From an uncultured Flavobacteriales bacterium (lineage in GTDB: Bacteria > Bacteroidota > Bacteroidia > Flavobacteriales_E > Vicingaceae), in assembly GCA_905479325.1 (NCBI GenBank), contig CAJQLW010000035.1:1-64000 (forward strand): DNA of 64,000 bases. The letters are read 5' to 3'. The notes under the pieces were generated by a model that saw only the letters and a program-made list of their open reading frames with translations, searched no databases and was not told where the DNA came from. Made by a program: the position numbers and the translations under genes. Shown here in pieces: positions 1,709-56,646 of this stretch. Numbering within the stretch: position 1 is the stretch's first letter; each line of letters begins with the position of its first letter.

Positions 1709-1724
1709 CTTTCTATGTTATTTC

Positions 1725-9908: not shown

Positions 9909-10979
9909 TTAATTACGGCTTTTATTTACAACAAGTGCCCCTTCTGCAAGTTCGATGTTCAACTCCCTGTTTTTACAAAGCTCTGCTGCACTGTATAATG
10001 CTGTTCTAAAAGAACTTTCATTCGCAACGCCTTGTCCTGCTATTTCAAAAGCAGTTCCATGATCTGGAGATGTTCTTACAAATGACAAACCGGCTGTAAA
10101 GTTCACTCCCGAACCAAACGAAAAACTTTTTGCCGGAATTAGTCCTTGGTCGTGATACATGGCCAAAATACCGTCAAATTGAGTGTACGTGCTTGATCCA
10201 AAAAAACCGTCAGCGGCGTATGGCCCAAATGCCAAGATACCGATACTTTTTGCTTGATTAATGGCCGGTACAATAATCTCTTGCTCCTCTTTACCCAACA
10301 ATCCATTATCTCCAGCATGCGGGTTAAGCCCCATAACTGCAATTTTAGGCTTTCGAATGCTAAAATCCTCTTTTAAGCTTTTGTTTAATATGGTCAATTT
10401 GGCCAAAATCAATTCAGCTGACAAGTTGCTACCTACCTCATTCAAAGGAACGTGGCCAGTTACAACTCCAATTCTTGCGCTTTCACTCAACATCAACATC
10501 AATGAGTCACTTGCCTCATCTTGGCTTTGCAAATATTCTGTATGACCTGGGAAACCAAAATCAGCAGACTGAATTGCATTCTTATTAATTGGTGCAGTAA
10601 CTAACGCATCAACATCATTAGCTTTCAAACTAGCCACTGCAGCAGAGAGCGACTGAAAAGAAATGTTTCCAGCTTCTTTTGACTCTTGACCGAAGTTATA
10701 TTTAAACTCCTCATCACAAACTGTTACAACATTAATTTGTCCATTCTTAACAGCCTCAACAGAATCAATAAAATTGAATTTTACATCTTGAATTTGAAGA
10801 GCCTTTACCTGATCTAAAATAATACTCTTCCCTCCAAAAATAACTGGCGTAAATAACTCTAGCAATCTACTATCCGATAATGTCTTTAGAATAACCTCAA
10901 CACCAATACCATTGGGATCGCCGATTGAAATTCCTAGTCTAATTTTTGTTGATTTTATCTTTGTCATTTTTATTTTCAA
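9909..10979 (-). CDS. pdxA: 4-hydroxythreonine-4-phosphate dehydrogenase
   Basis: PdxA oxidises 4-phosphohydroxy-L-threonine with NAD to the unstable product that PdxJ condenses into pyridoxine 5'-phosphate. pdxJ is also in this window, at 25058. The 356-aa chain begins with ISIGDPNGIG, the family signature. GHTEYL, MGLNPHAGDNG and MYHDQGLIPAKS carry the metal-binding histidines and phosphate contacts. The first ATG gives a slightly long lysine-rich start; the ATG 12 bases later (MTKIKS) is equally possible. It is the first gene of the pdxA-DUF177-rpmF run. Confidence 0.96.
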   Translation of the reverse strand: MKIKMTKIKSTKIRLGISIGDPNGIGVEVILKTLSDSRLLELFTPVIFGGKSIILDQVKALQIQDVKFNFIDSVEAVKNGQINVVTVCDEEFKYNFGQESKEAGNISFQSLSAAVASLKANDVDALVTAPINKNAIQSADFGFPGHTEYLQSQDEASDSLMLMLSESARIGVVTGHVPLNEVGSNLSAELILAKLTILNKSLKEDFSIRKPKIAVMGLNPHAGDNGLLGKEEQEIIVPAINQAKSIGILAFGPYAADGFFGSSTYTQFDGILAMYHDQGLIPAKSFSFGSGVNFTAGLSFVRTSPDHGTAFEIAGQGVANESSFRTALYSAAELCKNRELNIELAEGALVVNKSRN

Positions 10980-11045
10980 TTGAACAAGCTATAAGTCGCG
11001 CTGTTAACAGCATAGAAGTAGCTATTATATGTAATTTCACAGCTG

Positions 11046-11073
11046 CAAAACTAACATAATAAAGACTGACAAA
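11046..11073 (-). promoter_or_regulatory. Probable pdxA promoter
   Basis: On the minus strand, TTTG (11070-11073) is followed after 16 bases by TAGTTTTG (11046-11053), a full match to TAnnTTTG. The predicted transcript would start about 60 bases before the pdxA ATG. Confidence 0.45.
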
Positions 11074-11090
11074 CTCAGTTATCATTCAAA

Positions 11091-11098
11091 TACATTTG
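11091..11098 (+). promoter_or_regulatory. TAnnTTTG box abutting the mqnC start
   Basis: TACATTTG matches the Bacteroidota -7 box exactly but ends only two bases before the TTG start at 11101. If it is used, the message would be leaderless or the start codon would lie further in. No TTTG is seen 16-21 bases upstream, so it may be chance. Confidence 0.3.
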
Positions 11099-11100
11099 CA

Positions 11101-12225
11101 TTGAACACAGAAGACTTATTAGGTAGAGCATTGAAAAAAGAGTTTTTAACGGCACAGGAAGGACAATTTTTATTTGAGAATGCAGCTACAGCAGATTTGG
11201 CGTTTACGGCAAATCAATTAAAAATTGAGAAAAAAGGCAACAAGGAAGTAACTTGGATTATAGACAGAAATGCAAATACAACCAACGTTTGTCTTGCAAA
11301 CTGTAAGTTTTGTAATTTCTTTAGAATTCCAGGTCACAAAGAGGCGTACATAACAACCATAGAGCAGTACAAAACCAAAATTGATGAACTCATAAAATAT
11401 GGAGGCGAGCAATTGTTATTGCAAGGGGGACATCACCCTGAGCTTGGTTCAGATTATTACTGTGGCCTATTTAAAGAACTGAAAAGCCTCTATCCAAACC
11501 TTAAACTGCACGCACTTGGACCACCCGAAATTGCACACATTTGTAAACTAGAGGGGTTGAGCCATACCGAAGTACTAAAACAACTAAAAGAAGCAGGCTT
11601 AGATTCATTACCTGGGGCAGGTGCTGAAATTTTAAACGACCGTGTACGAAGATTAATCTCAAAAGGGAAATGTACCGGTAAAGAATGGTTGGATGTGATG
11701 AGAGCTGCCCATCAGTTAAACATTACAACATCGGCAACCATGATGTTTGGCCACATTGAAACACTAGAAGAACGATTTGAGCACTTGGTGTGGTTGAGAG
11801 AAGTTCAAAGTGAAAAACCAGAACATGCGAAAGGATTTTTAGCATTTATTCCTTGGCCGTTTCAAGATGATGGAACACTTTTAAAAAGAGTCAAAGGCAT
11901 TAGTAATGATGTATCGGCAGATGAATACATTCGAATGATTGCAATATCGAGAATAATGCTCCCGAACGTGGAGAACATTCAAGCGAGTTGGTTAACTGTA
12001 GGTAAAGAGGTTGCTCAAATTTGTTTGCACTCAGGCGCCAACGATATGGGTTCTATTATGATTGAAGAAAATGTTGTTTCTGTAGCAGGGGCACCACATC
12101 GATTTACAGCTGATGGAATACAGGACGCGATTCGAGAAGCGGGTTTTATTCCACAACTTAGAACACAACAATATGAATACAGGGAATTACCTAAAAATAT
12201 CGAGCAACAGGTGATCAACTATTAA
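11101..12225 (+). CDS. mqnC: Cyclic dehypoxanthinyl futalosine synthase (radical SAM)
   Basis: MqnC performs the radical cyclisation of dehypoxanthine futalosine in the alternative menaquinone pathway. The 374-aa chain has the radical-SAM cluster motif CxxxCxxC at Cys64, Cys68 and Cys71. LLQGGHHPELG, FIPWPFQ, IQASWLTVG and MIEENVVS are MqnC rather than MqnE features. Translation starts at a TTG; no ATG is available in frame upstream, and the MNTEDLLGRAL start aligns with the usual N-terminus. Other mqn genes are absent from the window. The next gene follows after 14 bases. The finding implies quinone synthesis by the futalosine route, pending proof that the other genes exist elsewhere. Confidence 0.93.
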   Translation: MNTEDLLGRALKKEFLTAQEGQFLFENAATADLAFTANQLKIEKKGNKEVTWIIDRNANTTNVCLANCKFCNFFRIPGHKEAYITTIEQYKTKIDELIKYGGEQLLLQGGHHPELGSDYYCGLFKELKSLYPNLKLHALGPPEIAHICKLEGLSHTEVLKQLKEAGLDSLPGAGAEILNDRVRRLISKGKCTGKEWLDVMRAAHQLNITTSATMMFGHIETLEERFEHLVWLREVQSEKPEHAKGFLAFIPWPFQDDGTLLKRVKGISNDVSADEYIRMIAISRIMLPNVENIQASWLTVGKEVAQICLHSGANDMGSIMIEENVVSVAGAPHRFTADGIQDAIREAGFIPQLRTQQYEYRELPKNIEQQVINY

Positions 12226-12239
12226 CGTCTAACTAAGTA

Positions 12240-14900
12240 ATGATTCGTAAACTCTTTGGTTTGTTTTTTTTGGTTACCATGGCTTTCTCAAGTTATGGCA
12301 CACACAACCTTGCCGGAGAAATTACTTACAGACACCTTAGTGGATTAACGTATGAATTTACATTTACTATTTACGCTGATGGAACTAGCCCCGCCATTGC
12401 TCGAGAAGAAATAGAAGTAAATTGGGGGGATTTTACAAAATTAGATTCCATCAATCTGAATAGTCAAGTTGAAATTATTTCATCTCCATTCCCTATTCTT
12501 AAACGAGTATGGAGAGCTACTCACACCTTCCCCGGACCAGCCTTTACGTACAGGATTTCTGTTGAAGATCCCAATAGAAATGCGAATGTAATTAACATGG
12601 ACAATTCTATAAATGTGCCGTTTACCATTCAAACAGAATTAACCATTCCAGCATTTACTGGCGATGAAAACAATTCAGTGCAACTGAGGAATGATCCAAT
12701 CGATAGAGCATGTGCTGGGGTTAGATTTGTGTATAATCCCGGAGCGTTTGACCCTGACGGAACTGATTCATTATCCTACTCGCTTGCTCCAAGCCGAGGT
12801 GGACGAGATGTGATTGCACCGAACTTTTCTTTCCCTCAAGCTTCAAATAGTTTTACAATAAATGCTGTTACAGGTGATTTAGTTTGGGATGTTCCCACGC
12901 AAACGGGAATTTACAATGTTGCCATTGTAATAAAAGAATACCGAAGAGGTTTCTTTATTGGAAGCGTCTTACGCGACATCCAAATCTCAGTTGAAGGAAA
13001 TTGCAACAATTCTGCCCCTACTATTTTCTCAGATGACCAAGTTTGTGTTGAGGCGGGAACAAGATTGGTAAGTTTAATTCGTTCAACCGATTCTGACCTA
13101 TCAGACCTGGTTACCTTAACAGCTAGCGGCGAAATTCTTGAATCACCAATTAATCTTCGAACAAACTTCAATATTCAGAGTTCGGCAAACCCTGTAAATA
13201 CAAGTTTCGAATGGAATACTAACTGCGAGGATGTTCGAAGAAATAGTTACACTTTGAATTTAAGAGCTGAAGATAATGCTTCTGTCAGGGGCTCTGTTAA
13301 TTTGGTCAATTTTAAAACCGTAAACATAAAAGTCGTTTCACCGGGGCCTTCAAACGCAAGTGCTCAGGCAAGTGGAAAGTCGATTTTACTCAACTGGAAT
13401 AACTTAGACTGCCCCAATGCAAGTGGTTACTATATTTATAGAAGAAATGATTCTTCAGGCTTTGTTCCATCCAACTGTATAACCGGTGTACCCGATGGAA
13501 TAAACTATGAAAAAATTGCCACTATTGAAGATGTAAACAATCAATCTTTTCTAGATAACAACAATGGCATTGGTCTCGTTCCTGGACAAAAGTATTGTTA
13601 CCTGATCACAAAGTTTTATCCAGATGGCGCCGAAAGTTATGCATCGGAAGAAGTGTGTTCCGAAATTGAAAAAATAATTCCTGTAATTACCAACGTTTCT
13701 ATTACAACTACAAACGAAGTGAACGGAAGCCTTTTACTAGCTTGGTCTCCACCAGACTCATTCAATACTACGGCATTCCCTGCTCCCTATCGATATTTAA
13801 TCGTTAACGAAGAAAATGGTTCGGTATTAATTGATTCCACAAATAGTATTACTGACACAATCTACAACCTCAACAATACAAACACAAAAAATAATGCTAG
13901 AAGGTTTAAAGTAGAACTGTTAAGCCTCGGAAATGGAAGACAAATTGTTGGAGGGACCTCAGTAGCATCATCTCTATTTTTAACAACAACTGTTAGTGAC
14001 GAACAAGTTCGTTTAAATTGGATAGATCAAACACCTTGGAATAACACAAGGTTTGACGTTTTTAGAAAGGTTTCAGGTGCACCTCAGTTTGACTCAATAG
14101 GCACTGTGTTAACACCAACTTTTACTGACTTTAATGTTCAAAACGAAATTGAATACTGCTACTTTATTCGTTCAGTAGGACAATACAACTTGAACAGTGT
14201 AATACGTCCCATCATCAATTTATCTCAAGAAGTTTGCGCCACACCAATAGATAATGTTCCGCCATGTAGCCCAGAGTTCACGCTAGAAAGCAATTGCACC
14301 GATGGGTTTATGGAATTAAAATGGAATGATATAAGAAGAGTATGTGCGCCTGATTTAGCGCGATACAGAATTTACTTTGCGGAAACCCCTAATGCAGCTA
14401 AAACGCTTCTTTTCGAAACAGAGCAATTAGATGATACCACTTACACCGCTCCAAGTGATAGCGTAGGAGGCTGTTTTACTGTTGTGGCAGTTGACTCTAC
14501 AGGGAATGAGAGCAATTTTAATGACTTACAATGCGCTCCATATTGCCCTGTTTATGAATTGCCGAATGTATTTACTCCAAACGGTGATGGAAAGAACGAC
14601 TTATTTGTGCCAATTAAGCCCTATAAATACGTTGACTCAATTTACATTCAAATTTTCAACAGGTGGGGCGAAGTAGTTTTCCAAACCAACGATATTGAAA
14701 TCAACTGGAACGGAGAACATGAAAACGTTAAATTTAAAAAAGGTAATGAAGTATTAAACTCCAATCAGAAAAATGTCAGTTCAGCTGTATATTTCTACGT
14801 TTGTGAGGTATATGAATTAAGCCTAGAACCAACTGAACCAAGAATTATCAAAGGCACAATTACCGTTTTAGATTCGAAAGTTATACAAGAAAAGCAATAG
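12240..14900 (+). CDS. Large secreted surface protein with CHU/type B T9SS C-terminal domain
   Basis: An 886-aa exported protein of unknown role. A signal peptide (about 1-20) precedes a mature start THNLAGEITYRHLSG typical of Bacteroidota gliding-associated surface proteins. The middle contains Ig/fibronectin-III-like stretches, recognisable by repeated YRIYFAE / YYIYRRN-type strands and paired cysteines. The C-terminal about 100 residues contain NVFTPNGDGKNDLF and IFNRWGEVVF and end in IKGTITVL, matching the gliding-motility C-terminal (CHU_C, type B) sorting domain recognised by the type IX system. It sits oddly between mqnC (14-base gap) and ribE (no gap). A paralogue sharing the domain plan lies at 16518-19748. 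Confidence 0.85.
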   Translation: MIRKLFGLFFLVTMAFSSYGTHNLAGEITYRHLSGLTYEFTFTIYADGTSPAIAREEIEVNWGDFTKLDSINLNSQVEIISSPFPILKRVWRATHTFPGPAFTYRISVEDPNRNANVINMDNSINVPFTIQTELTIPAFTGDENNSVQLRNDPIDRACAGVRFVYNPGAFDPDGTDSLSYSLAPSRGGRDVIAPNFSFPQASNSFTINAVTGDLVWDVPTQTGIYNVAIVIKEYRRGFFIGSVLRDIQISVEGNCNNSAPTIFSDDQVCVEAGTRLVSLIRSTDSDLSDLVTLTASGEILESPINLRTNFNIQSSANPVNTSFEWNTNCEDVRRNSYTLNLRAEDNASVRGSVNLVNFKTVNIKVVSPGPSNASAQASGKSILLNWNNLDCPNASGYYIYRRNDSSGFVPSNCITGVPDGINYEKIATIEDVNNQSFLDNNNGIGLVPGQKYCYLITKFYPDGAESYASEEVCSEIEKIIPVITNVSITTTNEVNGSLLLAWSPPDSFNTTAFPAPYRYLIVNEENGSVLIDSTNSITDTIYNLNNTNTKNNARRFKVELLSLGNGRQIVGGTSVASSLFLTTTVSDEQVRLNWIDQTPWNNTRFDVFRKVSGAPQFDSIGTVLTPTFTDFNVQNEIEYCYFIRSVGQYNLNSVIRPIINLSQEVCATPIDNVPPCSPEFTLESNCTDGFMELKWNDIRRVCAPDLARYRIYFAETPNAAKTLLFETEQLDDTTYTAPSDSVGGCFTVVAVDSTGNESNFNDLQCAPYCPVYELPNVFTPNGDGKNDLFVPIKPYKYVDSIYIQIFNRWGEVVFQTNDIEINWNGEHENVKFKKGNEVLNSNQKNVSSAVYFYVCEVYELSLEPTEPRIIKGTITVLDSKVIQEKQ

Positions 14901-15482
14901 ATGTTTACAGGAATTATTGAAAGTTTAGGGGAAATCAAGTCTCTTAAAAAAGAAGGCACAAATATCAGAGTAGAAATACAATCGGCTATTTTAGATGAGA
15001 TTAAAGTAGACCAAAGTATTGCACATAATGGAATTTGTTTAACTGTTGAAAAAATAAATCCAGCCAGTTACGAAGTGGTTGCGGTGAAAGAAACAATCGA
15101 CAAAACCAACCTAGGCGAATGGGCTTCAGGCGGTAAAGTAAACCTTGAACGCTGCATGCAAATGAATGCGCGACTTGATGGCCATATTGTACAGGGTCAT
15201 GTGGATGAGACAGCTGTAGTGCGTTCAATTAAAACTGAAGAAGGAAGTTGGGTATATTCTTTTGAATTAAAAAACCCATCTAAATTAATTGTTGAAAAGG
15301 GTTCTATTTGTATTAATGGAACCAGCCTTACAGCATTTAACGTAACGGACTCATCTTTCGCAGTGACGATTATTCCCTACACCTATGACCACACGATTTT
15401 TCATCAATTGAAAGAAGGAGACTTAGTGAATATCGAATTTGATATCGTCGGCAAGTACATTCAACGCATGGTGGCCAACTAA
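14901..15482 (+). CDS. ribE: Riboflavin synthase, alpha chain
   Basis: The enzyme dismutates two 6,7-dimethyl-8-ribityllumazine molecules to riboflavin. The 193-aa protein starts with the invariant MFTGIIESLG, includes ARLDGHIVQGHVD at the junction of its two lumazine-binding barrels, and has the expected length. Its ATG directly follows the TAG of the preceding surface-protein gene (TAGATG), so translation is probably coupled. The stop overlaps the metF stop on the other strand by 4 bases. No FMN riboswitch was recognised upstream. Confidence 0.95.
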   Translation: MFTGIIESLGEIKSLKKEGTNIRVEIQSAILDEIKVDQSIAHNGICLTVEKINPASYEVVAVKETIDKTNLGEWASGGKVNLERCMQMNARLDGHIVQGHVDETAVVRSIKTEEGSWVYSFELKNPSKLIVEKGSICINGTSLTAFNVTDSSFAVTIIPYTYDHTIFHQLKEGDLVNIEFDIVGKYIQRMVAN

Positions 15483-45587: not shown

Positions 45588-46156
45588 TGAGGGCTAAAGT
45601 TAAAGAAGTAGAGAAGATTATTTTGGGTATCGATCCTGGTACTTCAATTATGGGATATGGAGTTATTTCTGTGATAAAAGGAGAAATTAAACTACTTGCC
45701 ATGGGCGTGATTCAACTCGCTAAATTAGGCGACCATTCGCTCCGATTGCAAAGAATATTTGAACGCACCGTTTCTATCATTGATGAGTTTAAGGTTGATG
45801 AAATGGCAATTGAAGCTCCGTTTTACGGCAAAAATGCACAATCCATGTTAAAGCTTGGCAGAGCCCAAGGAGTAGCAATGGCTGCCTCCATGACACGAGA
45901 AGTCCCAGCGACTGAGTATATGCCAAAAAAGATAAAAAAAGCCATCACAGGTAAGGGCGCGGCTTCCAAAGAGCAAGTAGCTGCAATGGTCAGGTCCATT
46001 GTTCAATTCAAACAAGATCCTCAATATTTAGATGCGACTGACGCGTTAGCGGTTGCAGTTTGTCATCACTTTCAAGGAAATTCAGTTATTGGTAAGCAAA
46101 AGTCTTACTCTGGCTGGGATTCGTTCTTAAAAAATAATCCTGACCGAAAGATTTAG
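45587..46156 (+). CDS. ruvC: Holliday junction endonuclease RuvC
   Basis: RuvC cuts Holliday junctions in recombination together with RuvAB. The 189-aa protein from ATG 45587 (MRAKVKEVEK) has the four acidic catalytic sites expected: Asp16 in GIDPGTS, Glu in MAIEAPFYGKNAQS, and two Asp in LDATDALAVAVCHH. A longer frame from 45539 would add 16 non-conserved residues and overlap the neighbour's start, so it is rejected. The 3' end shares TTAG with the HIT gene stop. Confidence 0.95.
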   Translation: MRAKVKEVEKIILGIDPGTSIMGYGVISVIKGEIKLLAMGVIQLAKLGDHSLRLQRIFERTVSIIDEFKVDEMAIEAPFYGKNAQSMLKLGRAQGVAMAASMTREVPATEYMPKKIKKAITGKGAASKEQVAAMVRSIVQFKQDPQYLDATDALAVAVCHHFQGNSVIGKQKSYSGWDSFLKNNPDRKI

Positions 46157-46539
46157 GAGTTTATTAACTCAGCTATTTCATTTAGCTTTTCCGCCGAAAC
46201 TTCTAGTTTTGGTGCGGCAAAATTGATATCGTTTACGTTATTTATGGGAACCAAGTGAATGTGAGCGTGGGCAACTTCTAAACCAATTACAGCGACTCCG
46301 ATTCGTTTACAATCAATTTTGGCTTTGACCTTTTTGGCAACAATTTGGGCAAACTTCCACAACTCAACATACTCTTCACTTTCTATATCAAAAATATAGT
46401 CTATTTCTTTTTTAGGAATTACCAAAGTATGACCTAAGCCCAATGGTTGAATGTCTAAAAATGCTAGAAAATGATCATTTTCTGCAATTTTATAGCATGG
46501 AATGTCTCCATCGATAATCTTGGTGAATATTGTCGACAC
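46153..46539 (-). CDS. HIT-family (histidine triad) nucleotide hydrolase
   Basis: A 128-aa cytoplasmic HIT protein of the HinT branch. TIFTKIIDGDIPCYKIAEND is the family start and VAHAHIHLVPI carries the His-x-His-x-His active-site triad. HinT enzymes hydrolyse AMP-linked amines such as acyl-adenylates from tRNA synthetases. It begins at the last base of the greA stop (1-base overlap), so it is co-translated with greA, a pairing I recall from other Bacteroidota. Confidence 0.94.
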   Translation of the reverse strand: MSTIFTKIIDGDIPCYKIAENDHFLAFLDIQPLGLGHTLVIPKKEIDYIFDIESEEYVELWKFAQIVAKKVKAKIDCKRIGVAVIGLEVAHAHIHLVPINNVNDINFAAPKLEVSAEKLNEIAELINS

Positions 46540-47012
46540 TATCTACTGATGTTAACTACTTCAAACTTCATGGTACCTGATGGCACTTTAACCTCTGCCA
46601 TTTCTCCAACTTTCTTACCGAGTAATCCTTTAGCTATAGGAGATTCAACAGATATGCGTTTCTTCGCCATGTTTGCTTCCTTTTCAGAAACTATAGTATA
46701 CTCCATTTCGGCGCCATTGGCTAAGTTTTTAATCTTCACTTTTGATAAGATCAAAACCTTGGTTGTATCTAATTCAGACTCATCAACTACTCTTGAATTT
46801 GCAACTAAGGTTTCCAATTTACTAATCTTTAGCTCTAATAATCCTTGAGCTTCTTTTGCAGCATCGTATTCTGCATTTTCAGATAAGTCTCCTTTATCCC
46901 TAGCCTCTGCAATCTGAGCTGAAATTGAAGGTCGCTCTACTTTCTTAAGGTGATTTAATTCATCAATCACCTTTTTTAACCCTTCCTCTGTAAAATAACT
47001 TATTTGACTCAT
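46539..47012 (-). CDS. greA: Transcription elongation factor GreA
   Basis: GreA enters the RNA polymerase secondary channel and promotes cleavage of backtracked transcripts. The 157-aa product has the N-terminal coiled coil (about 8-75) with DLSENAEYDAAKEAQG, which includes the catalytic acidic tip, and a C-terminal FKBP-like domain with ESPIAKGLLGKKVGE. It is preceded by a TACTTTTA-type imperfect promoter box and by the terminator of the PorV-like operon at 47040-47071. Confidence 0.95.
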   Translation of the reverse strand: MSQISYFTEEGLKKVIDELNHLKKVERPSISAQIAEARDKGDLSENAEYDAAKEAQGLLELKISKLETLVANSRVVDESELDTTKVLILSKVKIKNLANGAEMEYTIVSEKEANMAKKRISVESPIAKGLLGKKVGEMAEVKVPSGTMKFEVVNISR

Positions 47013-47039: not shown

Positions 47040-47071
47040 AAAAAGAGAACCCCTTACGAGATTCTCTTTTT
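47040..47071 (-). terminator. Intrinsic terminator of the PorV-like operon
   Basis: A 10-base stem AAAAAGAGAA (47040-47049) / TTCTCTTTTT (47062-47071) with a 12-base loop, 24 bases beyond the last gene of the minus-strand receptor-surface protein-PorV unit. On that strand it ends in TTTTTGAATTTT. Confidence 0.7.
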
Positions 47072-47094: not shown

Positions 47095-48174
47095 TTAGAA
47101 TGCTAATCTCAATCCTATCGCATGAGTACCATCAAAAGCTCTCGTGACACGGTACGAATAATCGATTCCTATAGTAGAACCACTGCTGTTTGTTGGAACT
47201 TCAATGGTTGCACCTAGGGTAGGCCCTACCGAAGTAGTTCTTGACTCCACTTCATCAGCTGCATCAGTTTCAAATACATATCCCGCTCTGAACATAAACT
47301 TGTTTTGGAAAGCATATTCTCCACCAAATCGTATTTGATCTTTCGTGAAAGAGTTTGAAGTAAATGTTCCACTAGCAGTTATCCTGTGATCCGCAACAAA
47401 ACTCCCGTCTTCTTGCTCATCTACATCAGATAAATAAAAGTCATAAGATGCACCAATGTTAACCAATGAAGGTAATTCAAAATCATTGGTTCTTCTCTGG
47501 AATGTTAACGTTTGGTCTGTATTTTGTTTATCAGCTTGGATTGCTAAACCGTTACCAGAATACTTGGTTGTTGGACCTACATTTCTCAATGTAATACCAA
47601 ACTTGAATGCGTCATACTTTGCAGTTTTATAGGCAACTCCAGCATCAATTGAAACACCACTCGCATTAACATCAGCAGTAGACTCAGAGATTATTCGAAC
47701 CACTAAACCTCCACTAATACTATTGGAAAACTGTTTTGAATAGGCTAAGCCAATATTCAAATAGTTTGGTTGGAAAGAACCAATACCGCCATCTGGGAGG
47801 TCTGCAGTAGTAATGTCAATTTCACCAAAATTCATCCTAGTCACAGAAATTCCCATAACCCCAGCCTCGCCAAGTTTCTTAGCAAACCCGAAACTTAATA
47901 AGTTAATATCTGTCCCGCTTAACCACCTAGTATTGGAAAAGACAATCTCAGTATTCTTTGTGAAAGCTAGCCCAGCAATGTTTAAGTTCATTGCTTCAAT
48001 ACCTCTTGCACTTGCTGTATTCGATCCACCCCAACCTGAACTTCTTGCCCAAGGGTTTATTAACAACTCTGAAGCACCAGCTTCTCCTGCTCTATCTTCA
48101 TTTCCGGAAAACGCATCAAATGAAATTAATGCCAATGCCAACGCTATTGTATAAGTAATCTTTTTCATAGTCAT
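47095..48174 (-). CDS. PorV/PorQ-family outer-membrane barrel
   Basis: A 359-aa outer-membrane protein. A signal peptide (about 1-23) precedes the mature start EDRAGEAGASELLINPWARS, the usual opening of PorV/PorQ proteins, and the barrel ends in GLRLAF. PorV is the T9SS shuttle that takes cargo from the translocon to the attachment complex. This one directly follows a giant secreted protein with a T9SS-like end (3-base gap), so it may be its dedicated carrier rather than the housekeeping PorV; that is inference. The second ATG, 6 bases inside, gives MKKITYTIAL and is an equally likely start. Confidence 0.82.
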   Translation of the reverse strand: MTMKKITYTIALALALISFDAFSGNEDRAGEAGASELLINPWARSSGWGGSNTASARGIEAMNLNIAGLAFTKNTEIVFSNTRWLSGTDINLLSFGFAKKLGEAGVMGISVTRMNFGEIDITTADLPDGGIGSFQPNYLNIGLAYSKQFSNSISGGLVVRIISESTADVNASGVSIDAGVAYKTAKYDAFKFGITLRNVGPTTKYSGNGLAIQADKQNTDQTLTFQRRTNDFELPSLVNIGASYDFYLSDVDEQEDGSFVADHRITASGTFTSNSFTKDQIRFGGEYAFQNKFMFRAGYVFETDAADEVESRTTSVGPTLGATIEVPTNSSGSTIGIDYSYRVTRAFDGTHAIGLRLAF

Positions 48175-48177
48175 TTT

Positions 48178-51100
48178 TTAGAAATTGTTAAAATCAGCCG
48201 GTCTAATCGTACCAAACCACTTTAGTATTCGTTCGCCCACATTAGGAACATCTAGGTGAATAATATAGACTCCACTTGCAATTGGAACACCTACCTGATT
48301 GGTTAAGTCCCAATCTAGAAACTTATCTGGACTTGCTTTAAAGTATCGTCTGATTAACGTTCCATTTGTATTATAGATCGTGATTGTACAATTTTCTGGT
48401 AAATTTGTGAATTTAACAGTGTTGTCTAACTGCGTAAACTCATATCCACTTTGAGAGTAATATGGGTTCGGTACAACATTAATTTCCTCTAGCGCACTTT
48501 GTAAAAGATTTCGTTGTCCTTTTACCGTTGCCTTACCTGAAGTACTGAATTTATAAACAGGGAAACCATCATTCGCTAGAACACTATCTAGGTCATCATT
48601 ACCAGTATCAATCGTAGATTCTTTAATACCGAACGGCTTACTTACATTTATATCAATCCGTACATCATTAGAAAGTAACGTTTCTCCAAATTGTAGAAGT
48701 GGTATAGCTACATAAGCACAACTAGCATAACCGAATCTTCTTCTAATAGAAGCCGTACTACCCAACAACTCTCTTAATTGAGCACCGTTATCATATTCAG
48801 GAATAAAGGCGAATGGTGCAATTGTATTTTCATCTGATTCAGTGCGTCTGAATACGTAAATATAATGCTTACCTCCCCATATTTGATTGATAAATTCAGG
48901 ATCGATACCTTCAGCTACAGTTGTTGTAGGGTTCCAAAGCATATCATCTCCATTATTAAAGCTATACTTCGAGTCTTCTCCAAATGCCATATTAAGACGC
49001 TCTCCAGTTTCTTTATTAATAACATAACCGGGGAACCAACCCATTCCATATGGATTAATAAATCCAGCATCGCTCTCTAATGTATCACCCATTTGTCTCA
49101 AAGTATCTGCTAATTGAGCAGGCGTTAGATTACCTAACCCTGTTGTATCAACAGGATTTCCATCCTTATCTACAGACAACTTGGATACTTTCACTTGGTT
49201 TTTTGCGTGAATAACAGCTCCTGAAGCATCGGTTAAACCGTCATCTTTCGTTTCTACTACCGGGCATCTAGTCCATTTAGATTTGTCATTCGTAATAATA
49301 AACTGAATCGACATCAATTTAGATAATGGAGACCTTGTTGCAGAAAAATTATCAATTCCCGGAGCGTTAACAGTTAATTGTGCTGTTGCAGGGTCAGCCG
49401 ACAATTCATTTCTCACTAACCTGAAAGGAGCTATTATACCAGAGAGCATATCCTCATATGCCTGCTCTGGATCTAAGTATTGTGTAGCCGTAGAATTCTG
49501 GAAGTCATTAAAGAAATTAGAAGGTGACTGATCTGCTACTCCTGATAAAATCCAGTTGAAAGGGCCTTCAAGATCATTATCCGGAATTCCACTTAACCAC
49601 TGCCGTTCCGGATTATCGTATTCAATCGTAGCTGAGATGAATCCATTATTAGATTCTGGTTCCAGTGCACCTGGTACACTACCATCGATTAAATCAATAG
49701 ACAACCCCCAGTTAGGACTCAATAAAAGTTGTTGATTCTGAAAAGCGATTGACTTGTCAGAATTCACTGTATCAGTTCCGCCTTCTCTCCAAATTCTCCA
49801 ATAAGTAGACTCATCTATAGATTGAGGATTTAAAGTGTCTACAAACTGAACATAATATGTCCCGTCTATAATATTTAACGGGTCTACTACGCTTACAGTA
49901 AACGGACCTTGATCCGCTGCGTATGTAATCTCATTTATCGTTTTTTCTGTTGACTCCCATGCTTTATCCGTTAGCAACGCATCAATTGAAGCTTGAGTAA
50001 TTCTTAACGCATTTCCACCGTTACCTGTTCCTTGAAGTCTTGTAATTCCAATTCTATCACCAAAACTAGAATTAACAGCAGTTCCTCCTTCTTCAAACTT
50101 TGGTGGAGCAGGAATGGCTGTAAAAGCGGTAACTTCTCCACCTGTTGCTGACTTTCTACTTCTTAGGTAAGTAGTAGTTTGCCCATCAAATGCAGCTGCA
50201 AGCGGAAGAATTGTGTCTGTTAAGTCTGGAGCAGCTCCTTGCAGATAAGGTTTAAACTCGTTATATCCATAGGCTATAGCAATGTAATAATACGTTTTGT
50301 AATTTATTAAAGCTGCGTCACCATCAGCAAACGCATCTTGATTTAACGAGAAGCTTCTCTGAATCCCTTCGTTGGCAGCAACTACCTTCCTTACAGGAAT
50401 ATTTGCGTTCAACCCCTTATCGAAGGTGAAATTTGTTAAGCTTGCTACGTTATCTTTTATGTCACATTGAAAAACTAAACGCGCTCTACTAGGGTCTTCA
50501 ATATCGTTCACTGAAATACCTGGACCTGCGGCTTGATACACTTGATAGCCTTGGAACCTATATCTATCATCAAGGAATACAGGATTCGTAAGATTCAATA
50601 GGTATTCTGGCGTAACAATATTAGGGTCTCTCTCTTCATAGTTTTCTCCAAAGTTATTAGAGGTACTTGGGTTAGATAAGTAGAAAATTAATTCCTTATC
50701 CAACTCCTGAACAGTTACTTCTGGTGCATCAGGACCATTTAACACTTGGAAACAGTTATCAAATAAAGCCTGAGCCTTATCATCAGCTGTAAATAAATCA
50801 GCTACAGAAGCTAATCTACCTCCGCTTTGAGCTTGTGCGAAAACAACCCCTACTGTAATATCATTTACGTTTCCTGGTCTTAAGGTAAAAGGTCCAGCAG
50901 ATTGTAAGAATCTTCTATCACCATCAGCATTTTGAGGTTCTCCCCCTCCAGGGTTATCTTCTGTCCAATTTGTGTTTGTTGGTATCGTGGTAAAACCATT
51001 TTCATCTGTTGTACCCCAATGAAAAGGATCAGTTTCGCCTGGGAACATGAAATCTGTAGGTATATCTTCAACACCAGGTGTGTTAAATCCATTTCCTCCA

Positions 51101-52425
51101 TGCCGCATTCTTCTACCGTTCTTCCAAATTCCACGCATGTAATTATAATAATGTACTGCTAAATCTGGATCTCCGTTCGGAGCTGGTCCTATATTATAAT
51201 AAACAAACCTTCTCATTCCGAATCTCTCGTTATCCGGTACCAAGTCTGGTTCTCTATCGTTTGGATCAAAATATCCTAAACCGTTTAGCGCTTCTCCCGG
51301 CCCTATTCCTACAGCGTTGTTAATACCGTCAGCATCCTGATAAGGACCCTCAAAAAAGTCAATTCCAATCGCAGGGGGGTTGGCTCCATAACCAGCCTGA
51401 CCACCTTGACCGCCATCAAACTCCACACCGTTGAACGCATACCCTAAACCTCTTTCAACATCACAACCTACGTAATCATCTGTTGCATCTCCAACATCAG
51501 GATCCACAAAACTTGCAAAAAATGTATTTGTTAGCGTAAAGGTTGATCGGTTGATCAACTCAAAGTTGTAAAATGTCATGTTATTAATCTCATCATTCGT
51601 TGCAAAAGCGAATGCTTGACCGTGAATCTCCATTCCTATTGAAGGAGCATTTGATTCTGTGTGAAGGTTCCCTTTATCGTTAAAAATCCACCAGTATGTT
51701 TTATCACCAAAAAGTGGTCTTCTTCCGCTTATAGAACGGTTCTCTCTATTTTCTCTACAATCAACATCACCTACAAGATCATAAAAAGGATAATCTCCTA
51801 ACTCAGGCTCATATGAATCATCACCTGCAACATTCATGTAAGGAGCCAATCTGAAATCTTGTCCTTTCGATACGTCTCCATTACCTGGCCATTCTGAAAT
51901 TACAGTTGGCACTTGATAGTCCGGAAAGTCTTCGGCAGCAGTACCTTTTAATACGGCTTGATTATATGCGTTGAATAAAGCTACCTCTGCTCTTGTTAAT
52001 TCGAAGAATCGATCGTACTCATCACATGTCACGTCATCAATTTCAGCAGTTCCAAGAACATCTAATGGTCCAGTATAATAATCAACTCCTTGACCAAATT
52101 TACTTACCGCAGCTTTCAATTGCCCGTTCACATCGGTACCTGCAAGCCATAGACCACCTGCGTAAAGGGCATAACTATTTGAACCCTTAGGCACCTCATA
52201 ATCAGCAACACCGTTCGCTCTATCTTGCCACCACAGACCGCCTGCTTCAACTCGTGTTCTAACGTTGTTGAATTCAAGAAAAATTATTCTACTAGCGGGA
52301 GCACAACCAGCTGCAGTATTAATTTGTTGCTGTCTTGGTTTATTCTTATCTTTTTCACCACTCGCTCCAAAAGCAATTACTGGCGCCAAAAGACCCATCA
52401 ATATTGAAATTTTTAACTTTCTCAT
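48178..52425 (-). CDS. Giant secreted protein with T9SS-like C-terminal region
   Basis: A 1415-aa protein with signal peptide (about 1-20). The N-terminal module contains LEFNNVRTRVEAGGLWW, YEVPKGSNSYALYAGGLWLAG and SKFGQGVDYYTGPLD. I recall this module from large surface proteins of Bacteroidota, but no function is known. The middle has long Asp/Asn/Gly-rich stretches with predicted beta structure. The last about 100 residues (INVVPNPYY, CTITIYNTNG, VPIASGVYIIHLD, ILKWFGTIRP) resemble a type A T9SS sorting domain with an extra tail after the usual end. It lies between a TonB-dependent receptor (20-base gap) and a PorV-like gene. Confidence 0.8.
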   Translation of the reverse strand: MRKLKISILMGLLAPVIAFGASGEKDKNKPRQQQINTAAGCAPASRIIFLEFNNVRTRVEAGGLWWQDRANGVADYEVPKGSNSYALYAGGLWLAGTDVNGQLKAAVSKFGQGVDYYTGPLDVLGTAEIDDVTCDEYDRFFELTRAEVALFNAYNQAVLKGTAAEDFPDYQVPTVISEWPGNGDVSKGQDFRLAPYMNVAGDDSYEPELGDYPFYDLVGDVDCRENRENRSISGRRPLFGDKTYWWIFNDKGNLHTESNAPSIGMEIHGQAFAFATNDEINNMTFYNFELINRSTFTLTNTFFASFVDPDVGDATDDYVGCDVERGLGYAFNGVEFDGGQGGQAGYGANPPAIGIDFFEGPYQDADGINNAVGIGPGEALNGLGYFDPNDREPDLVPDNERFGMRRFVYYNIGPAPNGDPDLAVHYYNYMRGIWKNGRRMRHGGNGFNTPGVEDIPTDFMFPGETDPFHWGTTDENGFTTIPTNTNWTEDNPGGGEPQNADGDRRFLQSAGPFTLRPGNVNDITVGVVFAQAQSGGRLASVADLFTADDKAQALFDNCFQVLNGPDAPEVTVQELDKELIFYLSNPSTSNNFGENYEERDPNIVTPEYLLNLTNPVFLDDRYRFQGYQVYQAAGPGISVNDIEDPSRARLVFQCDIKDNVASLTNFTFDKGLNANIPVRKVVAANEGIQRSFSLNQDAFADGDAALINYKTYYYIAIAYGYNEFKPYLQGAAPDLTDTILPLAAAFDGQTTTYLRSRKSATGGEVTAFTAIPAPPKFEEGGTAVNSSFGDRIGITRLQGTGNGGNALRITQASIDALLTDKAWESTEKTINEITYAADQGPFTVSVVDPLNIIDGTYYVQFVDTLNPQSIDESTYWRIWREGGTDTVNSDKSIAFQNQQLLLSPNWGLSIDLIDGSVPGALEPESNNGFISATIEYDNPERQWLSGIPDNDLEGPFNWILSGVADQSPSNFFNDFQNSTATQYLDPEQAYEDMLSGIIAPFRLVRNELSADPATAQLTVNAPGIDNFSATRSPLSKLMSIQFIITNDKSKWTRCPVVETKDDGLTDASGAVIHAKNQVKVSKLSVDKDGNPVDTTGLGNLTPAQLADTLRQMGDTLESDAGFINPYGMGWFPGYVINKETGERLNMAFGEDSKYSFNNGDDMLWNPTTTVAEGIDPEFINQIWGGKHYIYVFRRTESDENTIAPFAFIPEYDNGAQLRELLGSTASIRRRFGYASCAYVAIPLLQFGETLLSNDVRIDINVSKPFGIKESTIDTGNDDLDSVLANDGFPVYKFSTSGKATVKGQRNLLQSALEEINVVPNPYYSQSGYEFTQLDNTVKFTNLPENCTITIYNTNGTLIRRYFKASPDKFLDWDLTNQVGVPIASGVYIIHLDVPNVGERILKWFGTIRPADFNNF

Positions 52426-52445
52426 AATCTATCTCTTTTTAAACC

Positions 52446-55400
52446 TTAGAAACTTAATTGAGCTCCTAATCTGATTCTTCTAGGTAATTCGTAATTAAAC
52501 GGATTCTGAAGTCTTAATCCGTATTGATCTCTGAATGATTGCTCACTTACTTGTTGTCTAATTTCATTTTGAAATTGAGCAGCATTTAAATAACCATCGT
52601 CGTCTGGGTTTCCTGTGAATGCATAAACATTTTGAATGTTTTCAGCATTTAAAACATTCAATACTTGTAAGTACAAATTCAAATTTGATTGCTTTTTACC
52701 TTCTTTCCAAGCTTGTTTATTTGCTTCAGTTTTAGCACCCCAGTTTATATCAAATGACTTATCAAGCCTTGCATCAACTCTAACAGTCCAAGGTAATCTA
52801 GAACCATTTATATCTCCCTCAACAGGCTGTCTTGTTTGTGAGCCACCAAACAACTCATTACTTCCTGCTAAGGATCTTTGAGTAAAAGGCGTACCTGAAC
52901 CCGCAATGAATACAACGTTAAGACCTGTATTTTCTAAAATATTTTTCCCTCCTACTCTTGGACCGTTGTAGTCTGAACCACTTCCATAACGGTAATCCAA
53001 AGTTGAAACGATTTGGTGTCTTTGGTCATACGTATAAGGGAAAATAGTTCTTAAGTTAGGTTGATCTGAATTAACTAAATTCAATGCAGTAGTAGAACCA
53101 GATCCTGTTCCTTCAGCAAATTGAATGGTATAATTTAACCTTAGTGATAAATTCTTAGTTCTTCTCATTTCGTAATTGATGGTAAAACCTTTTACCGTTC
53201 CAAAATCTAAGTTATCATAGGTTAAATAATCTTCTGGATATGCTCCTACCAACCTTCTAACTTGAATTTCATCTCTTTGCTCTCTATAGAACGACGAAAG
53301 AGTTAATGCAGAACTACTCCCAACTTTTTGCTTAAATCCTATTTCGTAAGAAATAGTTTTTGTAGGCTTTAGGTTAGGGTTATTGATAATTCTATTGTGA
53401 TTCGTAATGTAGATTAAATCTAACGGTTCAAGACCATTCTCTCCTGATGGTCGTCGAGTTAATATATCATAGTTTGCAAAGAACGTAGCCTCATCTGAAA
53501 TTGGGAATGAGAATGAAACCCTTGGCATTAAAGTATACTGAGGCTCATAATCTTCGAAAGACTCTGTGCTCATGTCAGCTGATGTTGATGTTCTTGTAGG
53601 ATCAACTAACCAAGGTGCTATACTAGATCCCGCTTGTAAAACAGAAGGATCATTTAGTAAAACTCCTTGAGCATTGAAAAATTCATTCGTTTCAGGGTTT
53701 CTATATCCAACAATACCTGTTGAAGATGGGTTCTCAATGTCATTTACGTAAACAATGAAATTGTCTTGAATATTATCAGGGGTTTCACCCAATCCCTGAG
53801 TTTTAGCATAAGCAACATCTCTAGTCGGGAATAAAGAGAAAGGGTCTTTCAACACAGGCTGATTTGCATCAAATCTATCCAAACGTAACCCAATTCTAAA
53901 AATCAAATCATCAAAGGCAAATTTATCCTCAATGTAACCCGCTACATAAATTGGTTGATATGCAGGAACTGGTCTAGTTTTAAAACCTAGTTCATTCTCC
54001 TCATTGAAGAAGTCATCCAGAGAAGGAGAAGCATTTAGCTTTTTCCCTTTGTAATCATACCCTCTGTATAATAAGTTTACATTATTCACCGGATTTATCA
54101 ATTGATCGGCAGAAAAGAATGTCATGTTATACAAGTCAATGTCATACGAATCGAAATCGATAAAGTCGATTCCATTTGGATCCAAGCCCAAAGCATTTCT
54201 CATGTTGTATGCGAAATAACTTCTATTTTCTCCATCGTATCTTCTTTCAAAAGTTACCGTTGGATCAATTGGATTTGGAGAAGTATAGTTTACTGAGTAA
54301 TTATTTGAGTCAAGCTGAAGGATATGACTGTTTACAGAAAGACGACCCAAATCCCATAAATCTCGAGGATTTAAAGAATAAAATCTTTCTATTCTTTGCT
54401 CGTATTCAAACCCAAGCACTATCGCATGATCGCCAATATCCGCTGAACCTCTACCACTTAGTCGAATCTGATCACTTTCAGATTTACTGTAACCATTACT
54501 AACAGAGCCTGTTGAAGACCACATATTATAAACAGCACCATTAACAGTTCCTCCATTAATAATACCACCATTACCTTCTACATCTTGAGCAGTACCATAA
54601 GCTCTTTCACCTGTAGGAAGAAAACCCGAAGGGAAGAAAGTATAATAATTACTTGTGTAATTTGCTAAGACAGGATTAATGTTAGACGGTGTGTAATCAT
54701 ATGAGTTTGGATTATCAAAAGCTGTAAGAAAACTTCCTCTGTATTCATTACCGTCATTTAGAGTTACAGGATTTCCGTTATTATCCCAATAAGATAAACT
54801 TGTATTGGCATCAAATCTACCTAAGTATCCATACCTAAAGAATTCATTCCCATGATTTCGATCTTCTACCAACCTATTTGCTCTTGAGAAATCAGCTTGA
54901 ACCGAGAAAAATGCGTTTTTAATTAAAGACTTGTCTTCTTCTTTTGTGTTTGCATCTTCTTTAGCATTTTCAAATCGCTGAACAAATCGTCCAAAGAACC
55001 TAAAATCTGTACTCAGTGATTGTGTATTATTCTCATAATTGTACAATGAAAAATTTCTATTGTAATTATTCCCTTTTGCATAGTTATACGTACCACCGAA
55101 CGAAATAGAACTTAAATCAGTTAGTTTCACATCAAACTTACCATTAACAGCGATACTTAGATCATCATCGTTAAGTCTAAAGTCTATTTGCTCGAAATCG
55201 TCATTTGTTAGAAACTGAGCCCGTTGTACAACACCATTATTTCCTTCTTGGAAGATTAATGGGTTATTTCTTATTTCTTGCTCAACATTGTCTTTTGGCT
55301 TATATATTGGGGTAACACTTTGACCACTTAACGCGTGTCTAATTTCACCTGTCAACAAGAAACCGAAAGGAGAAGTAACCTCTCCGTCTTTGTCTTTCCT

Positions 55401-56213
55401 TTTAATAACAGGTCCACCTAAAGCGAATCCAAAAAGATTATAACCCCACTTATCTAAACCAAAAGAAGTAGTTTCTCCTGTTTTAAAGCCGGAAGACAAA
55501 ACCTCTGCACTACCAAAATACTCCGTAAATGCACCTCTAGTAGTTACTGTGGTAACAGCACCTGTTACGTCACCGTACTGAGCAGATATCCCTCCGGTTT
55601 TTACAGAAACTTCTTCAATTGCTGATTTTGGCAAACTTGATGATCCGATGATTTTGATACCATCAACAAATGTGATAGAGCTATTAGAACGCTGCCCTCT
55701 AACGTTATTGTTTCCGGAACCATTGTCTCTAGATGTAATACCGTTTCCTGCCGCTTTAGTAATATCTGCAACACTACGAACAGCCATTTGAGTAATTTCA
55801 GTCCTATTTACACTTCTTGAAATTTCGGTTTGATCAACTTCAATAATAGGCTCAGCCCAAATTTCAACTTCTTCAATATCTACCCCTTTAGAAAGTTCCG
55901 CATCAAGTATTTTCAACTTACCTGAACTTACTACAACGCCTGACTTTCTACTTGGAGAAAAACCAACGTATGAAAACTTCACATCATAGGACCCAGGAGG
56001 GATAGGTTTCAAAGTATAAACTCCATCAAAATCAGTTGTGGTTACAAGAATTTGCTCTGTACCTCGAAGTAAAACTACATTGGCAAAAGGAACGGGCTCA
56101 CCGTTTGCTTTCTCCGTTACCGTACCTTTAATTGTACCAGCCCCTACTTGAGCGCTTACTGAGGATGCAAATCCCAACGCTATCGCTAGCGTGAAAAGTA
56201 ATTTTCTTAGCAT
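52446..56213 (-). CDS. Large TonB-dependent receptor with carboxypeptidase-regulatory-like domain
   Basis: A 1255-aa outer-membrane receptor. A signal peptide (about 1-21) is followed by a carboxypeptidase-regulatory-like domain (about 27-112, GTIKGTVTEKANGEPVPFANV). A plug comes next (about 130-245, NNVRGQRSNSSITFVDG and GGISAQYGDVTGAVTTVT), then a long barrel ending RRIRLGAQLSF. Its length and the missing SusD partner argue against a polysaccharide-utilisation system. It is the first gene of a tight unit with the giant secreted protein and a PorV-like barrel. The ligand is unknown; a role in export or assembly of the giant protein is possible. Confidence 0.88.
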   Translation of the reverse strand: MLRKLLFTLAIALGFASSVSAQVGAGTIKGTVTEKANGEPVPFANVVLLRGTEQILVTTTDFDGVYTLKPIPPGSYDVKFSYVGFSPSRKSGVVVSSGKLKILDAELSKGVDIEEVEIWAEPIIEVDQTEISRSVNRTEITQMAVRSVADITKAAGNGITSRDNGSGNNNVRGQRSNSSITFVDGIKIIGSSSLPKSAIEEVSVKTGGISAQYGDVTGAVTTVTTRGAFTEYFGSAEVLSSGFKTGETTSFGLDKWGYNLFGFALGGPVIKRKDKDGEVTSPFGFLLTGEIRHALSGQSVTPIYKPKDNVEQEIRNNPLIFQEGNNGVVQRAQFLTNDDFEQIDFRLNDDDLSIAVNGKFDVKLTDLSSISFGGTYNYAKGNNYNRNFSLYNYENNTQSLSTDFRFFGRFVQRFENAKEDANTKEEDKSLIKNAFFSVQADFSRANRLVEDRNHGNEFFRYGYLGRFDANTSLSYWDNNGNPVTLNDGNEYRGSFLTAFDNPNSYDYTPSNINPVLANYTSNYYTFFPSGFLPTGERAYGTAQDVEGNGGIINGGTVNGAVYNMWSSTGSVSNGYSKSESDQIRLSGRGSADIGDHAIVLGFEYEQRIERFYSLNPRDLWDLGRLSVNSHILQLDSNNYSVNYTSPNPIDPTVTFERRYDGENRSYFAYNMRNALGLDPNGIDFIDFDSYDIDLYNMTFFSADQLINPVNNVNLLYRGYDYKGKKLNASPSLDDFFNEENELGFKTRPVPAYQPIYVAGYIEDKFAFDDLIFRIGLRLDRFDANQPVLKDPFSLFPTRDVAYAKTQGLGETPDNIQDNFIVYVNDIENPSSTGIVGYRNPETNEFFNAQGVLLNDPSVLQAGSSIAPWLVDPTRTSTSADMSTESFEDYEPQYTLMPRVSFSFPISDEATFFANYDILTRRPSGENGLEPLDLIYITNHNRIINNPNLKPTKTISYEIGFKQKVGSSSALTLSSFYREQRDEIQVRRLVGAYPEDYLTYDNLDFGTVKGFTINYEMRRTKNLSLRLNYTIQFAEGTGSGSTTALNLVNSDQPNLRTIFPYTYDQRHQIVSTLDYRYGSGSDYNGPRVGGKNILENTGLNVVFIAGSGTPFTQRSLAGSNELFGGSQTRQPVEGDINGSRLPWTVRVDARLDKSFDINWGAKTEANKQAWKEGKKQSNLNLYLQVLNVLNAENIQNVYAFTGNPDDDGYLNAAQFQNEIRQQVSEQSFRDQYGLRLQNPFNYELPRRIRLGAQLSF

Positions 56214-56346: not shown

Positions 56347-56646
56347 TCATCTTTTAAACCATCTTTTCACAAAGAAACCCTTTTGATTATCGTTGTTTCG
56401 TTTCGATTTTCTCTTCGTTTTTTTCATTCTTTTTTGAACTGCTTTTGTCTGCATTTCAAAATGCGCTTTCCTTTTTGCCTCTTCTTGTTTTTGCGCTTCC
56501 CTCTTTTTTCCCTCTTTATCTTTTTCTAATTGTTCGCTGCGCTTATCAACTGTTTTTTGCACTTTGCGTTGAGACTGTGCCTGCGAGTTCATAGCTATGA
56601 CACAAAGTGAAAAGAAAATGACGCCTCGCAGAATATATTTTTTCAT
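56347..56646 (-). CDS. Small exported highly basic coiled-coil protein
   Basis: A 99-aa protein with a good signal peptide (about 1-23, ending SQAQ). The mature part is almost only Lys, Arg, Glu and Gln, predicted to form one charged helix, ending in a very basic KRMKKTKRKSKRNN stretch and FVKRWFKR. No family is recognised. The composition is that of a DNA-, lipopolysaccharide- or peptidoglycan-binding periplasmic protein, but that is a guess. It is a single gene divergent from the Rieske-like lipoprotein gene. Confidence 0.65.
   Translation of the reverse strand: MKKYILRGVIFFSLCVIAMNSQAQSQRKVQKTVDKRSEQLEKDKEGKKREAQKQEEAKRKAHFEMQTKAVQKRMKKTKRKSKRNNDNQKGFFVKRWFKR

Follow-up and report, generated by a model that had tools for sequence, protein, structure and literature searches.

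In the T9SS attachment complex of P. gingivalis, the C-terminal sorting domain (CTD) of PorU stays on PorV and that of PorZ on PorQ, both uncleaved (PMC10202324), and PorZ and PorQ form a subcomplex (PMC5562754). A review has hypothesized that cognate PorV-like barrels may protect the CTD from cleavage (PMC10202324). Type B cargos such as SprB are encoded next to cognate PorP/SprF barrels, which are needed for secretion and hold the cargo at the surface (PMC12618676, PMC9143113); the type A CTDs reported so far all use PorV (PMC12618676). A FadL-superfamily barrel, BamG, serves as a platform for the surface protein BamH (PMC12578637).

Here we describe a locus that shares features with all of these. 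In the window, i.e., the whole stretch of 64,000 nucleotides that was analysed, three consecutive minus-strand genes at 47095-56213 code for a TonB-dependent receptor (T), a giant exported protein (G) and a barrel of the PorV/PorQ family (P). As in PorZ-PorQ and PorU-PorV, a PorV-family barrel would hold one surface protein by an uncleaved, type-A-like CTD, and the CTD of G is nearest to those of PorZ and PorU. Unlike these two pairs, which are parts of the secretion machine, P belongs to a separate clade, is encoded in one operon together with cargo and TonB receptor, and is found in several sets in some genomes. The arrangement resembles SprB-SprF in that the cargo gene is directly followed by its own barrel gene, a specialised shuttle or anchor in the type B case (PMC12618676, PMC9143113), but the CTD of the trio is type-A-like, its barrel is of the PorV/PorQ and not the PorP/SprF family, and a TonB receptor is included.

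The likeness to SusCD lies in a receptor with CarboxypepD_reg and plug domains encoded together with a large surface protein; however, T does not match TIGR04056, and G has a T9SS CTD and differs from the SusD-like lipoproteins. P matches the profile of the PorV of the SprA-PorV complex (6h3i) and shares family NF033709 with it, but falls below the equivalog cut-off and in a separate clade, canonical PorV being encoded elsewhere, next to porU. Finally, BamG is of the Toluene_X/FadL type and holds lipoproteins (PMC12578637), whereas P is PorV-type with a T9SS-type partner.

Organization of the locus

The features of the locus are as follows (aa, amino acids).

52446..56213, minus strand: T, TonB-dependent receptor, 1255 aa, with signal peptide, CarboxypepD_reg-like N-terminal domain, plug and barrel
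55866..56135, minus strand: T residues 27-116, N-terminal extension of the carboxypeptidase-regulatory-like kind known from SusC-type receptors (PF13620, 65.5 bits; PF13715, 47.1 bits)
55569..55823, minus strand: T residues 131-215, TonB plug domain (PF07715, 27.8 bits; cut-off 23.9)
48178..52425, minus strand: G, giant exported protein, 1415 aa, with no Pfam or NCBIfam family above cut-off
52363..52425, minus strand: G residues 1 to ~21, signal peptide of the Sec type as judged by eye, non-lipoprotein type
50266..52278, minus strand: G residues 50-720, conserved N-terminal beta-rich module (AF2 pLDDT 87)
51460..51504, minus strand: G residues 308-322, conserved acidic motif DPDVG...DDYVGCD
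48211..48498, minus strand: G residues 1310-1405, T9SS sorting domain, Ig-like, type-A-like, nearest to PorZ and PorU
48181..48210, minus strand: G residues 1406-1415, extra C-terminal tail beyond the last strand
47095..48174, minus strand: P, PorV/PorQ-family barrel, 359 aa, of the TonB-receptor-linked clade by profile and tree
47040..47071, minus strand: terminator-like hairpin of 14 pairs 3' of P, between the trio and greA-HIT

The three genes are separated by gaps of 20 and 3 bases, and the open reading frame (ORF) coordinates agree with the strand, spacing and lengths of 1255 and 1415 aa given in the initial annotation. On the minus strand, terminator-like hairpins are absent from the T-G and G-P gaps; matches of this kind are overall no commoner here than in shuffled sequence.

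The genes next after the trio, greA and a HIT-domain gene (window 46153-47012), follow it in most genomes of the class seen, a conserved synteny without an obvious functional reason. We do not count them as part of the module, because we saw their linkage in the window's class only and the hairpin intervenes. Upstream of T there is a 99-aa ORF (window 56347-56646), signal-peptide-like and rich in Lys and Glu, and an ORF of ~94-113 aa recurs at this place in many relatives of the class.

Occurrence and gene order

Of 41 related genomes, 40 have a homologue of G, as do 79 of 198 genomes sampled across the phylum; a genome of the same genus as the host (G004) has a trio too. A first comparison of 80 neighbourhoods around G homologues gave the same-strand order T-G-P at 56 loci (the window counted), the median gaps being 24 and 17 nt, and these trios span many families and more than one class. 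Within the named GTDB collection at least 580 G relatives were confirmed, and at 80 named loci among them, which overlap the first-round set in part, 56 G genes belong to a complete trio; the carriers include the cultured Acidiluteibacter ferrifornacis and Crocinitomix catalasitica ATCC 23190. With order and strand kept at 56 loci, the arrangement is far beyond chance. The triplets that the initial annotation mentioned for other Bacteroidota do exist, the three families being adjacent across the phylum and not only in this genome; a lack of adjacency in related genomes, which it had named as a refutation, was looked for and did not come out. It also knew of no function assigned to them, and the open-licence literature that we searched (preprints were outside its scope) gave no description of the trio.

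Type-I G (profile E <=1e-70) and type-I P (profile >=260 bits), the kinds found in the window, have identical occurrence: both are present in 57 of the 198 genomes and neither in the other 141. As these genomes are related to one another, the Fisher value of this co-occurrence cannot be read as a probability. Among 71 type-I P genes, 64 have G directly upstream; of the remaining 7, at least 4 are at or near contig ends. SprA is present in 154 of the 198 genomes, including all 57 with the trio (lists compared by eye). Since 97 genomes have SprA and no trio, the trio seems to be an optional user of the T9SS rather than a part of it.

Some loci depart from the common pattern. L109 (genome G163, ~10900-15120) has a group made up of a receptor, a 273-aa ORF and a type-I P, in which G is missing, and two G genes adjoin on the opposite strand; this is possibly a trio with a replaced cargo. 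At L203, L220, L229 and L240, same-strand genes of ~1030-1110 aa lie directly upstream of type-I G and give no match to the T profile; they might be divergent receptors or other partners.

The receptor

Both the CarboxypepD_reg and the plug domain of T are above their Pfam cut-offs, and among 20 relatives of T the N-terminal extension is found in all and the plug in 18. The solved protein nearest to T by profile is a SusC homologue, matched over the N-terminal domain and the plug. We do not place T in SusC/RagA, as TIGR04056 gave no match up to E = 1. From its plug and SusC-like N-terminus, T looks like an ordinary uptake transporter.

The giant protein and its sorting domain

Only one of the 56 type-I G members has a Cys lipobox-like motif; the other 55 lack it. 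The AF2 models of G are confident (pLDDT 87.2 for residues 20-745 and 86.5 for residues 746-1415), and the conserved N-terminal module noted in the initial annotation, with the motifs quoted there, is present, and is also found in other T9SS cargo. Its acidic motif hints at metal binding as a possible property. Foldseek recognised no substrate-binding fold in the N-terminal part (best TM 0.26) and its matches to glycoside-hydrolase beta-sandwiches were too weak (TM <=0.26) to make the module a known enzyme. Sequence searches of G against PDB and PHROGs gave nothing useful, Pfam and NCBIfam gave no SusD family match, and no hydrolases or similar ligand genes were seen beside the window's trio.

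The C-terminus is more informative. Foldseek searches with the AF2 model of the ~100 C-terminal residues gave PorZ as the best match (E 3.3e-6), followed among T9SS proteins by substrate CTDs bound to SprA-PorV (8glk, TM 0.72; 8gl8, TM 0.70; both normalised by target) and PorU, which bears out the T9SS-like C-terminus that had been read from the letters. PorZ is also the commonest NCBIfam match of G relatives (19 of 20), the window's own G matching below cut-off. We do not class G as an ordinary type A cargo, though the fold agrees, since its TIGR04183 score of 17 bits is below the cut-off of 23; no type B CTD family was reported for it by NCBIfam. The type-I tail extends ~10 residues past the last strand, and its final residue is F, Y, L or I in all 56 members. 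All but one of the 56 type-I G proteins retain Lys1402, which, matched by position and not by superposition, is the apparent counterpart of the near-invariant Lys that solved complexes show in contact with PorV close to the end of the CTD (PMC10994853).

The barrel and the host T9SS

P passes the PorV/PorQ family NF033709 (152.5 bits, cut-off 90) and fails the canonical PorV equivalog NF033710 (82.9 bits, cut-off 250), PorQ NF033711 (77 of 220 bits) and PorV2 NF052325 (43 of 325 bits). Its profile matches PorV 6h3i with E 3.5e-24 and, weakly, the FadL relatives TodX, CymD and TbuX. A maximum likelihood tree of 143 barrels (quick search, SH-aLRT support) resolved canonical PorV (100), PorQ-type (100), type-I P (100) and type-II P (99) as clades. 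The receptor-linked barrels group together (90), with types I and II inside, and P falls outside the canonical PorV clade. The initial name of PorV-like barrel fits the family match. The clade of P is separate from those of PorV and PorQ, and on cut-offs and tree together we reject its being canonical PorV, PorQ or PorV2. A rule based on tail length had wrongly assigned L143 to type I; in the tree this locus groups with type III.

The host draft genome (2.7 Mb, 92 percent complete) has the T9SS genes for SprA (split over two contigs), PorU and PorV. The canonical PorV gene adjoins porU and its product scores 451.8 bits on NF033710; PorQ and PorV2 are also present, all of them outside the trio. 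P is an additional PorV-family member and not the sole PorV of this genome, in which we counted seven PorV-family loci. One of the seven, at window 1725-2939, proved to be a FadL (Toluene_X) protein. This barrel (404 aa) is followed on the same strand by a 497-aa GDSL-like protein, the two occupying window 215-2939; they may be a candidate pair of the BamG-BamH type, as in the BAM complex of Bacteroidota.

Paralogous trios

PorV-family genes number from 4 to 20 per genome (30 genomes), and neighbourhoods in several genomes show many further trios around the extra copies, some deep-branching genomes holding several paralogous ones. In type II trios, G has 1041-1282 aa and a CTD ending in ..GKFAIIK; in type III, G has about 680-780 aa. 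Over 74 complete trios the distances of P, T and the CTD correlate at 0.64 to 0.82. Comparing trios within genomes removes species history, and the Spearman coefficients for P-G, P-T and T-G are then 0.56-0.68 (57 pairs, six multi-trio genomes), values reached by none of 1000 within-genome permutations (0/1000). By these distances, T, G and P have been kept together through duplication and not reshuffled.

In a sister arrangement, a lipoprotein of ~500-540 aa takes the place of G and is followed by the receptor and the PorV-like barrel. The host itself has such an operon-like set on contig C44 (L021, 8562-15096), with a lipoprotein of 501 aa, a TonB receptor of 944, a PorV-like barrel of 398 and an NHL-repeat protein of 411, and similar sets recur at L150, L154, L157, L166 and L178. 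With a lipoprotein in the place of G here, the function of P may be another one than holding a T9SS CTD. Another organization was seen at L164 and L175, with a cargo of ~529 aa bearing a T9SS-like CTD and then two different PorV-like barrels from outside the trio clades.

CTD class and barrel neighbour

P is directly downstream of 136 of 164 assessable cargos with trio-type CTDs, against 0 of 12 relatives of the G body with a standard type-A CTD (Fisher 4e-9, kinship ignored); the classes were scored with models trained on trio cargos, which is partly circular on the trio side but not for the 12 type-A relatives. Genome G031 has only the type-A version in the scan and no type-I P, and G038 has neither.

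Roughly 23 cargos whose CTD is type I lack both T and P as neighbours. The number of G genes lacking P is too high, because spurious ORFs masked some P genes in our ORF calls (L070, L078). Most of the tested genomes with orphan type-I cargos have a type-I P elsewhere, so strict gene pairing is not required; in this they resemble F. johnsoniae, whose orphan type B cargos share a shuttle (PMC12618676). The interpretation in the initial annotation is supported in part, and best in its core: that the linked PorV is dedicated to one cargo is well supported by comparative evidence, namely adjacency, the separate P clade, a CTD class that tracks the clade and presence of P, and joint divergence. The host's canonical PorV, PorQ, PorV2 and PorU could serve G instead.

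A proposed surface complex and its alternatives

We think that T, G and P probably form one surface complex, if by a modest degree of confidence, in which a T9SS-exported G is held by P and works with T. G would be exported through the T9SS, and P, instead of the general shuttle PorV, would by analogy receive its CTD from SprA. P may then keep G bound and uncleaved at the surface, as PorQ does PorZ, displaying it beside or over T, a TonB-dependent transporter. Since T is an ordinary-looking TonB transporter and a relative of SusC homologues, G is taken as its surface partner. The role we find most likely for G, and the weakest step of the scheme, is that of a surface capture subunit for the ligand of T, a T9SS-built counterpart of SusD.

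G and P might instead be a cognate pair with a structural or adhesive role, as a surface layer or adhesin, T being only co-expressed or a scaffold and no uptake taking place. The size and beta-rich nature of G and the existence of G-like proteins on their own agree with this, as do the type B cargos held by PorP/SprF barrels, which are known or predicted adhesins (PMC12618676). However, T diverges together with G and P in paralogous trios, keeps its plug and N-terminal domain, and accompanies P even where a lipoprotein stands in place of G, and we consider a purely structural role unlikely.

Another explanation is that P is a redundant PorV paralogue, PorV shuttling G and PorU cleaving it, so that the operon would reflect co-regulation only. 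The type A fold of the G CTD, the canonical PorV and PorU of the host and the use of PorV by the type A CTDs reported so far (PMC12618676) are what such a case would look like, but it would leave unaccounted for the match of P clades to CTD classes, the distinctive CTD tail and the fact that G and P occur in exactly the same ones of 198 genomes, and we judge it quite improbable.

A role of T in export, as a TonB-type gate for G, might be read from the position of T before G in the operon and from PF25183, an Oar-like barrel family that 5 of 20 T relatives match. In Myxococcus xanthus, Oar is needed for the secretion of PopC (PMC6434023). Against this, G has a T9SS CTD, every type-I genome has SprA, and T is kept beside P in the absence of G; the uptake-transporter look of T also favours a partner role over that of an export gate, which we regard as very unlikely. 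We give scarcely more than a passing chance to P being a FadL-like channel for a hydrophobic compound, with T, G and P as parallel parts of a nutrient system and no CTD binding, since the weak matches of P to TodX, CymD and TbuX on which it could draw are far exceeded by the PorV match (E 3.5e-24), and the CTD class follows the P clade.

Implications

That a T9SS cargo is paired with a cognate barrel is already known; more novel would be a reading of the trio as a TonB receptor complex built by the T9SS. We advance only tentatively that there is a third route to TonB receptor complexes and that PorV-family barrels radiated with matching CTD classes. If true, the capture subunit would be a T9SS giant clipped by its own PorV-type barrel instead of a SusD lipoprotein, and a genome might have many private cargo-barrel-receptor sets, against the view of one PorV.

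The recurrence of the trio in many Bacteroidota suggests a class of surface complexes with a private secretion partner. It would be a widespread counter-example to the single-PorV view of type A CTDs, and suggests a role for many unassigned genes of the PorV/PorQ family. The hypothesis that cognate barrels protect the CTD (PMC10202324) becomes testable in natural paired variants, and the trio would link protein secretion with TonB-dependent uptake.
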